Below are positions 56,698 through 60,505 of a stretch of 64,000 nucleotides of DNA, piece by piece; the stretch's first letter is position 1, and each line of letters opens with the position of its first letter. This stretch comes from Paludisphaera borealis (lineage in GTDB: Bacteria > Planctomycetota > Planctomycetia > Isosphaerales > Isosphaeraceae): NCBI RefSeq assembly GCF_001956985.1, contig NZ_CP019082.1, positions 5,704,001-5,768,000 on the forward strand, written 5' to 3'. A program made the position numbers and the translations under genes. Under the pieces are notes generated by a model, which was not told where the DNA came from, searched no databases, and saw only the letters and a program-made list of their open reading frames with translations.

Positions 56698-57593
56698 AAC
56701 CGTCCTCCAGCAGCCTCGACGTGACGGCCCGAGCCGACGAGGCGGCGGCCGTGCTGCGGTCGGCTCTCGGCGAACCGCCGGCCGCGGCGGTGATCCTGGG
56801 GTCGGGGATGGGCTCGTTGGTCGACCGGTTCACCGACCAGACGGTCATCCCCTACGATCAGGTTCCCCACTTCCCGAAGCCGACCGTCGCGGGCCACGCG
56901 GGCAACGTGGTCTTCGGCTCGGTCGAGGGGGCGAAGGCGATCCTGTTCCAGGGCCGATTCCACTACTACGAGGGGCACGACCTGGAGACGGTGACGTTCC
57001 CGGTCCGCGTGCTCCAGCGCCTGGGCGTCCGCACGCTGATCCTCACCGCGGCGACCGGTGGCGTTCGGCCCGAACTGCGGCCCGGCAACATCGTCTGCCT
57101 TTCCGACCACATCAACCTGATCGGGTCCAATCCGCTGCGCGGTTCCAACGACGCCGGGCTCGGTGAGCGGTTCCCCGACATGAGCGAGGTCTATTCGAAG
57201 CGGCTGAGGAACCTTGCGCGAAGCGAGGCCAAGCGACTGGCGATCAACCTGATCCCGGCCGTCTATGCGTGCCTTCCCGGCCCGAGCTACGAGACGCCCG
57301 CCGAGATCAAGATGTTGCGCGTGCTGGGCGCCGACGTGGTCGGCATGTCGACGGCGCCCGAGGCGATCGTCGCGCGGCACGCCGGGATGGAGATTCTCGG
57401 GCTGGCGCTGGTGACGAACGCGGCGGCCGGCGTCGCGGCGACGCCGGTCCGCCACGAGGACGTTCTGGAAGCCGGCCGCAAGGCGACGCCGCTGATCGGC
57501 AAGCTGATCCGCCGGATCGTGCTTCGACTGGCCGGCGTCGGATCGGGGGAAATCGGGCTTTCCGGCGAGTTTTCTACGATCGGCGGTCCCTGA
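56694..57593 (+). CDS. Purine nucleoside phosphorylase
   Basis: 299 aa from ATG 56694, overlapping the nupC stop as ATGA. Motifs: AVILGSGMGSLVDRF, the phosphate/ribose residues in GRFHYYEG and LTAATGGVRPEL, SDHINLIGSNPL, GPSYETPAEIKML and VVGMSTAPEAIVARH, ending LALVTNAAAG. It is the trimeric PNP (PunA/XapA-type) class by these motifs. It phosphorolyses purine nucleosides to free bases. Its 3' end overlaps the opposite-strand HAD gene by 20 bp. Confidence 0.94.
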   Translation: MKPSSSSLDVTARADEAAAVLRSALGEPPAAAVILGSGMGSLVDRFTDQTVIPYDQVPHFPKPTVAGHAGNVVFGSVEGAKAILFQGRFHYYEGHDLETVTFPVRVLQRLGVRTLILTAATGGVRPELRPGNIVCLSDHINLIGSNPLRGSNDAGLGERFPDMSEVYSKRLRNLARSEAKRLAINLIPAVYACLPGPSYETPAEIKMLRVLGADVVGMSTAPEAIVARHAGMEILGLALVTNAAAGVAATPVRHEDVLEAGRKATPLIGKLIRRIVLRLAGVGSGEIGLSGEFSTIGGP

Positions 57594-58257
57594 GCCGGGC
57601 GAGCAAGGCGGTGACGTCGTAGCCGCGAAGATCGGCGACGACCTCGTCGGCTCCGGCGTCCCAGAGCGCCTGGGCGGGGTTGCTCGACTCGACGCCCACC
57701 GCGTACATGCCGGCGGCCTTGGCAGCCTGGACGCCGACTGGGGCGTCTTCGAAGACGACCGACCGCTCGGGCGCGCCGCCCGCCCCGGCCGCGGCGGCCA
57801 GGAAGACCTGTGGGTCGGGCTTGCCCCGCGTGACGTCTTCGAGCGAGGCGATCTTGGCGAACCGGCCGTCCAGGCCGCACTCGCTCACCGTCAGGTCGAG
57901 GTTCGCGCGGACGCCGCTCGACCCGATCGCCAGCGCCACTCCGGCCTCGGTCAGGGCGTCGAGCACGTCGCGGACGCCGTCCATCAGGGCGATCCGGCCG
58001 CGTGCGAGGTCGCGATAACAGACTTCCTTGCGGTCGGAGAGGCCGGCGATCTCAGCGTCGGTGATCGTCTCGCCCGCGACCATGCGGAGGATGCTCGGGT
58101 TCGTCATCCCGAACGTCTGGTGGATGAATTCCGGAGACAGGGCCATTCCAGTCTGCCGGCCCAGCTCCTCCCAGGCGTCCTGGTGAAGCTTGAGCGTATC
58201 GACGAGCACGCCGTCGTGGTCGAAGATGGCGAGAAACGAACCGTTGGTGGTGGACAA
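57574..58257 (-). CDS. HAD-superfamily phosphatase/phosphoglucomutase-like
   Basis: 227 aa from a TTG start at 58257, AGGAG upstream. Motif I FDHDGVLVDTLK (nucleophile and acid/base Asp), motif II GSSGVR, motif III RGKPDPQVFL and motif IV VVFEDAPVGVQAAKAAGM are intact with a cap domain inserted after motif I. It resembles beta-phosphoglucomutase or small-sugar phosphatases; substrate unknown. It is followed downstream by the convergent PNP, overlapping by 20 bp. Confidence 0.88.
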   Translation of the reverse strand: MSTTNGSFLAIFDHDGVLVDTLKLHQDAWEELGRQTGMALSPEFIHQTFGMTNPSILRMVAGETITDAEIAGLSDRKEVCYRDLARGRIALMDGVRDVLDALTEAGVALAIGSSGVRANLDLTVSECGLDGRFAKIASLEDVTRGKPDPQVFLAAAAGAGGAPERSVVFEDAPVGVQAAKAAGMYAVGVESSNPAQALWDAGADEVVADLRGYDVTALLARLRDRRS

Positions 58258-58329: not shown

Positions 58330-59718
58330 CTACACGGATTCGCAGACCGCGTCGATCTCGTTGACGATCTGTCGCATCGTGATGGTGCGGTCGCCCGGGT
58401 CGGGGGTCAGCATCGACTGCAACAGCCCCGTGAACGGCTCGCCGGCCTCGGAGGCCATCGCGTGACGGTCGAGGTTGCGGATCTGGTCGAGAACCCGAAG
58501 GATGTTGCCGTCGGCGAACGCCGTCTTGCCGGTCGTCAGTTCGTAGAACACGATACCCAGCGAGAAGACGTCGCTGGCGAACGAGGCGGGCTCGCCCCGG
58601 GTCTGTTCGGGCGCCAGGTAGCGCGGGGTTCCGAACAGGCCGTCGCCCGACTCGGCGATGCCAAGCTCGGTCGTCTCGTCGGTCTTCATCGCCTGAATCC
58701 GGTGCAGCCGCCGGGCGAGGCCGAAGTCGAGGATTTTGACGAACCCGTCTTCGCTGAGCATGATGTTTTCGGGCTTGAGGTCGCCGTGGACGATGCCGGC
58801 GTCGTGGGCGGCGGCCATGCCCGCCGCGATCTGGCGGCTGACGTCGAGCAGGCCGTCGGACGCCAGCGTCCGGGCCCGGGCCACCTGCGCGAGCGACAGG
58901 CCGTCGACGAATTCCATGGCGATGATCGGCAGCCCCGCCGTGTCGTCGACGGCGTAGATCGTCGACACGTTCGGGTGGTTGAGCGCCGCCGCCGAGCGCG
59001 CTTCGGCCAGCACGGTGCTCGGCGTGACCGGGCAATCCTTGCGGAAGATCTTGAGGGCGACCGGACGATCGAGCTGGAGGTCGCGGGCCAGGTAGACCCG
59101 AGCGAACGTCCCCACGCCGATCTCGGAGTCGATCAGGTAGTGCGAGAAGATATGACCCGGCCGCAAGGCGGCGTAGGGGTCGATGTGCGAGCTGTCCGAC
59201 ATCCAGTCCTCGCGGCAGAGGCCGCCCGACTGAAGCGCGGTGAGGACCCGGATCACTTCCTGGCTCCGCCGGCCGACGCTCAGGCTGTGGACGACCTGAT
59301 ACTGGATCAGCCCCTCGGGATCGATGATGAACGTCCCGCGAACCGCCACGTTCTCGCGCGACTGGTAAACGCCGTAGGCGCGCGAGACCTCGCCGTCGGG
59401 ATCGCTGGCCAGGGGGAAGTTGAGCCCTCCCAGCCCCCCTTGGGCCTTCGGGGTGGCCATCCACCGCTCGTGCAGGTCGACCGGATCGCAACCGATCGCC
59501 AGCAGGTCGCAATTCAGTTCCGCGAGTTCCTCATGCCGCTGGCTCAGGCCGATCAACTCGGTGGGGCAGACCATCGAGAAGTCGCGCGGATAGAAGACCA
59601 GGATCAGCCAGCGGCCGCTGGAGTCGCTCAACCGCGCCCGGCCTCGATCCGGGTCGGGGAATCGCGTGCAGGGCAGATCGAACGCCGGCGCGGGGTTGCC
59701 GATCAAGGTGGTTTGCAT
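58330..59718 (-). CDS. 2-Cys peroxiredoxin fused to a Ser/Thr protein kinase
   Basis: 462 aa from ATG 59718. Residues 1-175 are an AhpC-type peroxiredoxin: PAFDLPCTRF, FYPRDFSMVCPTELIGL with the peroxidatic Cys51, the Arg-containing FPLASDPDGEVSRAYGV, and LCREDW with the resolving Cys168, in the position AhpC uses. Residues about 193-460 are a complete bacterial Ser/Thr kinase domain: G-loop IGVGTFARVYLARD, Lys223 in VALKIF, Glu239, HGDLKPENIM with catalytic Asp313, DFG at 331-333, YLAPEQTRGE. No membrane segment is seen, so it is cytosolic. Direct domain fusion suggests peroxide-controlled kinase activity through the Cys pair; that is inference. No weak ribosome site decides the start, but the N-terminus fits peroxiredoxins. 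Confidence 0.92.
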   Translation of the reverse strand: MQTTLIGNPAPAFDLPCTRFPDPDRGRARLSDSSGRWLILVFYPRDFSMVCPTELIGLSQRHEELAELNCDLLAIGCDPVDLHERWMATPKAQGGLGGLNFPLASDPDGEVSRAYGVYQSRENVAVRGTFIIDPEGLIQYQVVHSLSVGRRSQEVIRVLTALQSGGLCREDWMSDSSHIDPYAALRPGHIFSHYLIDSEIGVGTFARVYLARDLQLDRPVALKIFRKDCPVTPSTVLAEARSAAALNHPNVSTIYAVDDTAGLPIIAMEFVDGLSLAQVARARTLASDGLLDVSRQIAAGMAAAHDAGIVHGDLKPENIMLSEDGFVKILDFGLARRLHRIQAMKTDETTELGIAESGDGLFGTPRYLAPEQTRGEPASFASDVFSLGIVFYELTTGKTAFADGNILRVLDQIRNLDRHAMASEAGEPFTGLLQSMLTPDPGDRTITMRQIVNEIDAVCESV

Positions 59719-59890: not shown

Positions 59891-60505
59891 ATGCGAGCCG
59901 CGATGCACACGGTGGGCGAGGAGATCGAGGGGATCTTTGGGTTCCTCGGCGTGATCTGGGCGGTCTACCTCGTCAGTTTCATGGCGCCGGGCGTCGACCG
60001 GTTCGGCGTCGTGCCGCGCACGGTCGGCGGGCTGGTCGGAATCGCGGCCATGCCGTTCCTGCATGCGAGCTTCGCGCATTTGCTGGGCAATACGGTCCCC
60101 CTTTTCATCCTCCTGACGATACTCGCGGGGTCGCGGGCTCAGTCCTGGAAGATCGTCGCCGGCATCACCTTTTTGAGCGGGTTCCTGCTGTGGGTCTTCG
60201 GCCGGCCCGCGATCCACATCGGGGCGAGCGGGCTGGTCTTCGGGTTGATCACGTTTTTAATCGCTTCGGGCCTGCTCGAACGCCGACCGATCCCGTTGCT
60301 TGTTTCGGTGCTCGTTGGGTTCCTGTACGGCGGATCGCTCGTCTTCGGCGTTGTGCCGGGGCTGCAATCCGGCGTCTCCTGGGACGGCCATCTCTGCGGC
60401 GCGGTCGCCGGGGGGGCGGCGGCCTACGCGCTGGTTTCCGGCGGCCCGCGACGCGTCGGTGGAATCGAATCAGAGCCGATGTCGATCGAGAAGCCCGTCT
60501 TGTGA
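59891..60505 (+). CDS. Rhomboid-family intramembrane serine protease, minimal form
   Basis: 204 aa from ATG 59891, GGAGG upstream. The catalytic Ser is in IHIGASGLVFGLITF and the His in SWDGHLCGAVAGGAAAYAL; HASFAHLLGNTVPLFIL supplies the N-terminal Asn/His element. About six membrane segments fill the protein, with only a short C-terminal tail, unlike the longer rhomboid at 39749-40924. Substrate unknown. It is divergent from the peroxiredoxin-kinase gene, 172 bp away. Confidence 0.9.
   Translation: MRAAMHTVGEEIEGIFGFLGVIWAVYLVSFMAPGVDRFGVVPRTVGGLVGIAAMPFLHASFAHLLGNTVPLFILLTILAGSRAQSWKIVAGITFLSGFLLWVFGRPAIHIGASGLVFGLITFLIASGLLERRPIPLLVSVLVGFLYGGSLVFGVVPGLQSGVSWDGHLCGAVAGGAAAYALVSGGPRRVGGIESEPMSIEKPVL

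Follow-up and report, generated by a model that had tools for sequence, protein, structure and literature searches.

A peroxiredoxin-Ser/Thr kinase fusion of planctomycetes as a candidate peroxide-responsive kinase, with very likely selenocysteine-containing forms

Introduction

Typical 2-Cys peroxiredoxins are defined by a PxxxT/SxxC motif together with a supporting arginine, and enzymes of the Prx1 type form an intersubunit disulfide with local unfolding of the C-terminal arm, followed by reduction by thioredoxin. Besides, a GGLG/YF signature marks peroxiredoxins that are sensitive to overoxidation. Among Ser/Thr kinases, a membrane span and PASTA repeats are typical of PknB, and the cyanobacterial kinase SpkB is reportedly modulated by redox state. 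SelO, which is presumably the kinase-like selenoprotein referred to below, carries selenocysteine (Sec) at the C-terminus of its kinase-like fold and has no peroxiredoxin domain.

This paper describes a gene encoding a peroxiredoxin-Ser/Thr kinase fusion protein in a 64,000-nucleotide stretch of the Paludisphaera borealis genome (the window), and its homologues in other planctomycetes. The fusion protein resembles Prx1/AhpC-type 2-Cys peroxiredoxins in fold, PxxxSxxC site, Arg127, and C-terminal resolving cysteine, but differs from these by the kinase that follows and by its position in a clade apart from 23 stand-alone planctomycete proteins. Likewise, it shares the kinase fold and catalytic residues of PknB-type kinases, but has HGD in place of HRD and carries a peroxiredoxin where a membrane span and PASTA repeats would be typical.

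Both the parts of this arrangement and the idea of coupling them are known. Yeast Tsa1, a 2-Cys peroxiredoxin, acts on protein kinase A by way of cysteine oxidation in response to H2O2 (PMC7392609) and in this resembles what is proposed here, but Tsa1 and its target are separate proteins and a conserved kinase cysteine is modified, whereas the kinase half of the fusion has no invariant cysteine. Engineered roGFP2-peroxiredoxin probes combine a peroxiredoxin as H2O2 sensor with a reader in one chain (PMC6778086), but are man-made and have an optical read-out, whereas the fusion is natural and carries a kinase. A natural combination of a kinase with a thioredoxin-fold thiol domain is encountered in a mycobacterial Ser/Thr kinase, of which the domain placed outside the membrane is DsbA-like rather than a peroxiredoxin (PMC1262709). 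Bacterial selenocysteine peroxiredoxins have Sec at the peroxidatic site (T/SxxU) and represent a known Sec/Cys family (PMC1794560); the peroxidatic site very likely holds Sec also in two of the fusion genes described below (L064 and L065), which differ by being fused to a kinase. Moreover, a selenoprotein with a protein-kinase-like domain was already known (PMC3281104) and combines selenocysteine with a kinase-like fold, as L064 and L065 very likely do, so that this combination is not new in itself. Kinases of the planctomycete group have been associated with 105 accessory domain groups (PMC11032199), and the terms "AhpC", "redox", and "peroxide" are absent from the main text of that survey. 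An earlier note on this DNA, made from the sequence alone, knew of no characterised example of a peroxiredoxin-kinase arrangement, and a literature search with supplements outside its scope found no description of one either; the architecture may be present in the supplementary tables of PMC11032199. The novelty therefore lies in the arrangement itself, together with its very likely selenium version.

Results

Gene organization and neighborhood

The fusion gene (58330-59718, minus strand) starts with ATG and encodes a protein of 462 residues. The earlier note, which gave no strand, had proposed a single uninterrupted frame encoding an AhpC-type peroxiredoxin followed by a Ser/Thr kinase, and this is borne out by the open frame, by homologues spanning both halves, and by matches to both Pfam families, i.e., AhpC-TSA at residues 6-140 (59299-59703, minus strand, E 2e-36) and Pkinase at residues 196-453 (58360-59133, minus strand, E 5.1e-46, 157.6 bits against a cut-off of 31.7). 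Similarity to the Prx1 type extends beyond the AhpC-TSA domain to about residue 181. The individual residues that had been pointed out are likewise all present in the translation: Cys51 of VCPTE and Cys168 of LCREDW occur in the contexts FSMVCPTE and GGLCREDW, and the kinase is complete with G-loop, catalytic lysine, HGD, and DFG.

The fusion gene is followed on the same strand by a gene for a HAD-family hydrolase (57574-58257, minus strand) and preceded by a divergently oriented rhomboid gene (59891-60505, plus strand), both assigned by Pfam and in agreement with the HAD phosphatase and rhomboid that had been named as neighbors. Gene neighborhoods were compared at 31 loci (the window and 30 others) by a crude comparison of stop-to-stop frames without a gene caller. 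By this comparison the HAD frame was matched at nine of the 30 other loci, and it lies directly downstream on the same strand at six loci (L043, L093, L094, L096, L097, and L103), all of which belong to the family of the window. The fusion itself and a second kinase frame in L045 aside, none of the frames was listed in more than nine other loci among the 31 compared. The absence of a widely recurring neighbor frame does not point to an operon partner, in line with the earlier view that no partner or substrate gene is evident nearby, and the fusion gene behaves like a self-contained unit.

Conserved features of the peroxiredoxin half

For the analysis of conserved positions, 51 rows with a fusion were read and 46 distinct genes were aligned, leaving out L028, L031, L061, and L070 (same contigs as named records) and the interrupted L076; the in-frame TGA codons of L064 and L065 were taken as Sec and entered as Cys, and L055 was shortened to 520 residues. 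Residue 51 (Cys or Sec; 59566-59568, minus strand, TGC in the window), Cys168 (59215-59217, minus strand), and Arg127 are invariant among the 46 genes, Pro44 is kept in 45, and position 48 is Ser in 45 and Thr in one. The fusion thereby has the PxxxT/SxxC peroxidatic motif as well as the supporting arginine. Among PDB chains, the best phmmer match of the peroxiredoxin half was 1qq2, a mammalian 2-Cys Prx (E 3.8e-39), and the Cys168 segment aligns with the C-terminal VCPAGW segment of this chain, which we take to be its resolving-cysteine segment. None of the 60 PDB sequences considered, out of 133 matched, was matched over both halves. The protein scores below the cut-offs of the NCBIfam models for AhpC (TIGR03137, 102.6 against 272 bits) and PrxU (NF040737, 123.8 against 270 bits), which makes it a relative rather than a member. 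The window protein has GGLG, and GGVG, GGIG, or GGVE is found in other members. The C-terminal tail of an ordinary peroxiredoxin is replaced in the fusion by the kinase.

Conserved features of the kinase half

The closest sequence match of the kinase half is PknB. However, the NCBIfam model for the PASTA kinase PknB/Stk1 (NF033483) gave 199.8 bits against a cut-off of 450, with residues 193-403 matched. In the window protein the residues expected of a Hanks-type Ser/Thr kinase (Gly-loop, Lys, Glu, HxD, Asn, and DFG) are found as the Gly-loop residues G201 and G203, K223 (59050-59052, minus strand), E239, HGD at 311-313 (58780-58788, minus strand), N318, and DFG at 331-333 (58720-58728, minus strand), next to Glu371 of APE. 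Lys223, Glu239, His311-Gly312-Asp313, Lys315, Asn318, Asp331, Glu371, and Asp383 are present in all 46 genes, and Phe332 and Gly333 in 45. One copy, L048:5998-7311, has neither the FG of DFG nor the greater part of the activation segment, and may encode an inactive or unusual kinase.

The HGD motif is of the non-RD type and is shared by all 46 fused kinases, vs. none of the 19 closest kinases of the window's genome, of which 15 have HRD, two have HCD, and two have no match to the pattern used. In many non-RD kinases, phosphorylation of the activation loop is not what controls activity, and a different switch is conceivable here. However, 43 of the 46 genes have Thr at position 349 of the activation segment by alignment column (32 by a looser motif count), so that ordinary loop phosphorylation may also be the switch. 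Position 252 is Cys in 41 genes and Ser in the window protein, Cys occurs at position 229 in 11 and at position 459 in six, and the 46-gene alignment contains no invariant cysteine in the kinase half; a disulfide relay into a kinase cysteine is therefore not favored for the window protein.

Geometry and structure model

Residue 51 and Cys168 are 117 residues apart in all 46 genes. An arm or linker (residues 169-195; 59134-59214, minus strand) leads from the resolving cysteine to the kinase, and the distance from Cys168 to Gly201 of the Gly-loop is 33 residues in 42 genes and 34 in the other four. By contrast, the length of the activation segment (Asp331 to Gly363) varies between 9 and 69 residues. 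The near-constant length of the tether in sequences with identities down to 37% suggests that it matters where the kinase sits with respect to the resolving-cysteine arm.

Modeling of the two halves had been proposed in the earlier note. An AlphaFold2 monomer model based on seven sequences was of middling quality (mean pLDDT 70.7, pTM 0.55), with low confidence at residues 48-50, 164-181, and 333-365, and is adequate for both folds rather than for their arrangement. Foldseek retrieved PknB chains and Prx1/Prx2 chains for the two halves; the peroxiredoxin fold is assigned from these Foldseek rows, and the kinase part (residues 183-462) also aligns to PknA with a Z score of 28.5 and an rmsd of 2.4 over 256 residues.

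Distribution and origin of the fusion

Using the whole protein and E values up to 1e-60, matches to the fusion were found in 17 of 45 genomes of the window's family, in 42 of 397 sampled genomes of the class (22 of 185 genera), and in 12 of 392 sampled genomes of the phylum, these being lower bounds from overlapping samples that cannot be summed, with incomplete genomes among them and only a few candidates per genome scored for class and phylum. Profile searches, which with E values up to 1e-90 also give lower bounds, detected the fusion in four of 102 genomes of the order of G660 and in two of nine genomes of another class. Homologues over both halves occur in many genera with 37-76% identity, the upper value being that of the Paludisphaera soli locus, and all 23 members that were scanned singly matched both AhpC-TSA and Pkinase. 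The family search that had been suggested earlier thus reveals recurrence across planctomycetes, and two genes joined by an assembly error, which had been named as a finding that would overturn the fusion, as well as a frame-shift artefact, are ruled out by the same architecture in 46 aligned distinct genes and by its recurrence across genera, families, and more than one class.

Matches that ended near residues 330-375 continue through both halves when read, with the exception of L076 (G507:C6:122000-132000), whose kinase half is interrupted in frame by a TAG codon close to query residue 231, owing either to decay of the gene or to a sequencing error. A longer form of 827 residues is encoded by L055:1486-3969, in which peroxiredoxin and kinase are followed by a second kinase domain at residues 546-806. 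A scan of genome_contigs, which reaches close relatives only, yielded six fusion loci, five with planctomycete names and one from an uncultured bacterium. Among plasmids, the fusion had no match at 1e-40, and among phages five records were matched, none of them over both halves. These records (OR847153.1, OR848389.1, OR847152.1, OR848553.1, and PQ520169.1), which are named as Listeria or Enterococcus phage, are short and unannotated, contain kinase stretches 37-43% identical to the kinase half, and may be host DNA.

In quick maximum-likelihood trees, made by short searches without bootstrap, the peroxiredoxin halves of the 46 fusions fell on one side of a branch vs. 23 other planctomycete peroxiredoxins (stand-alone, all in frames of at most 333 residues) with an SH-aLRT of 95, and the 46 kinase halves were split from the 19 closest other kinases of the window's genome with an SH-aLRT of 100, an outgroup from one genome, so that a wider sample could place other kinases inside. 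As each half forms its own clade, it is likely that the fusion arose once, long ago, and that the halves have been kept together since.

In a class sample of 148 genomes, the peroxiredoxin half matched 27 genomes with at least 165 bits, all in frames of at least 463 residues, and after a gap the remaining matches had at most 132 bits. A second peroxiredoxin match was found in 21 of these 27 fusion-bearing genomes, and bulk scavenging is therefore not an obvious reason to keep the fusion. In the window's genome and five others of the 27 no second peroxiredoxin was detected at E 1e-22 (the window's genome has a weaker match elsewhere, at 6.5e-15), and there the fusion could also act as a scavenger.

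In-frame UGA codons at the peroxidatic position

The codon for residue 51 is TGC in 30 of the 46 genes, TGT in 14, and TGA in two, L064 (G684) and L065 (G660). This TGA is the single one within the match in both genes (L064:1636-1638 and L065:1639-1641) and is located in the context FSLV-U-PTEL. The two proteins are 59% identical and derive from different genera of one family, of which the third fusion gene, L066 (G550), has Cys at residue 51.

Six fusion-bearing genomes were examined for selenocysteine machinery. SelA and SelB were above cut-off in four of them (G684, G660, G550, and the window's own) and not in G731 and G747. The tRNA-Sec scores were 72.9-78.8 bits in the former four and 51.4 and 49.8 bits in G731 and G747, respectively, all above the family cut-off of 47; 14 named controls all responded somewhat, five of them above the cut-off, and consequently the tRNA-Sec search alone does not discriminate. 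The tRNA-Sec genes of G684 and G660 were also called by an Rfam scan. The window's genome has this machinery though its fusion uses Cys, with adjacent selA and selB genes at about G000:C1 4038554-4041810 and the tRNA-Sec at about G000:C1 7008587-7008681.

L064 and L065 hence combine an in-frame UGA at a redox position with SelA, SelB, and tRNA-Sec in the genome. An identical 5-bp stem (ACCGC/GCGGU) begins 13 nt after the UGA in both genes, with loops GGUCG and CGUGA that have a G among their first two bases. As a putative SECIS-like hairpin, it is supported by folding statistics in L065 but not in L064. The UGA codons of L064 and L065 very likely encode selenocysteine. That they are inactivating stops or sequencing errors instead is very improbable, for although both genomes are drafts (600 and 220 contigs, 86% and 79% complete), the hairpin of L064 is not statistically stable (z -0.97 and +0.44, vs. 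-3.45, and -2.42 in a longer stretch, for L065), and another copy, L076, does contain an interrupting stop codon, the identical codon is hit in two genera, precisely where Sec makes chemical sense and with the remaining frames open, SelA and SelB are above cut-off and tRNA-Sec reaches 73-75 bits in both genomes, and the shared stem has no matching 3' arm in the Cys homologue L066, as judged by eye. A residue that takes part in redox chemistry is where exchange of Cys and Sec is to be expected, and the very likely exchange at residue 51 therefore bears on the peroxidatic role of the fusion.

Discussion

The invariant active sites, the fixed spacing, and the Cys/Sec exchange at the peroxidatic site support the notion that both halves of the fusion are catalytically competent. 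From these sequence features, the fusion is probably a peroxide-responsive Ser/Thr kinase contained in one chain, in which oxidation of the residue 51-Cys168 pair would alter kinase output. H2O2 would oxidize residue 51 (Cys in the window protein, and very likely Sec in two lineages), which would subsequently form a disulfide with Cys168 of a partner subunit, with unfolding of the C-terminal arm. Because this arm is the kinase tether in the fusion, its change would reposition the kinase, by which inhibition may be released or imposed, or trans-phosphorylation may be allowed; a thioredoxin-type partner would then reduce the disulfide and reset the kinase. That the kinase changes after peroxiredoxin oxidation is what we infer, and the same applies to the sign of the change and its substrate.

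A reverse coupling, in which phosphorylation by the kinase of its own peroxiredoxin half or of a stand-alone AhpC turns peroxide removal on or off and the output is peroxidase activity rather than signaling, is unlikely. Eukaryotic Prx1 is controlled by phosphorylation, and the tethering in cis of two domains with both active sites kept would suit such control, but 21 of the 27 fusion-bearing genomes in the class sample have a second peroxiredoxin match for bulk peroxide removal. Slightly less probable still is that the peroxiredoxin half, being clearly of the ring-forming Prx1 type, acts as a scaffold that assembles a dimer or decamer or binds clients, and thereby clusters or targets the kinase, with redox chemistry as a side aspect: for scaffolding alone, neither the invariant residues 51, Cys168, and Arg127 nor the selenocysteine that two lineages very likely have would be required. 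Finally, domain fusions need not be regulatory and conserved partner genes are absent, but that two uncoupled enzymes were joined by chance or for co-expression is quite improbable given the near-constant linker over sequences down to 37% identity and the 148-genome sample, in which every match with a bit score like that of the fused clade lies in a frame long enough to hold both halves.

A peroxide-responsive kinase is accordingly preferred as the reading of the fusion. Going further, and at chances slightly short of even, the fusion may be a natural one-protein transducer from H2O2 to phosphorylation, in which the peroxiredoxin catalytic cycle, acting via the C-terminal arm, would itself switch the kinase, and which constitutes an old planctomycete invention, with some lineages having retuned the sensor with selenocysteine, which would make the kinase sensor selenium-dependent.

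It is a long-standing question whether peroxiredoxins only destroy peroxide or also pass the signal directly to targets, and the usual separation of sensor and target, together with the fleeting nature of their contacts, has made an answer difficult. The natural fusion fixes a sensor-kinase pair in one chain, so that the question can be addressed with a single purified protein and its point mutants. Moreover, the very likely Sec-containing forms offer a natural experiment in changing the rate or the overoxidation tolerance of the sensing step. For the planctomycetes themselves, the fusion would suggest an input signal for one of their many kinases.
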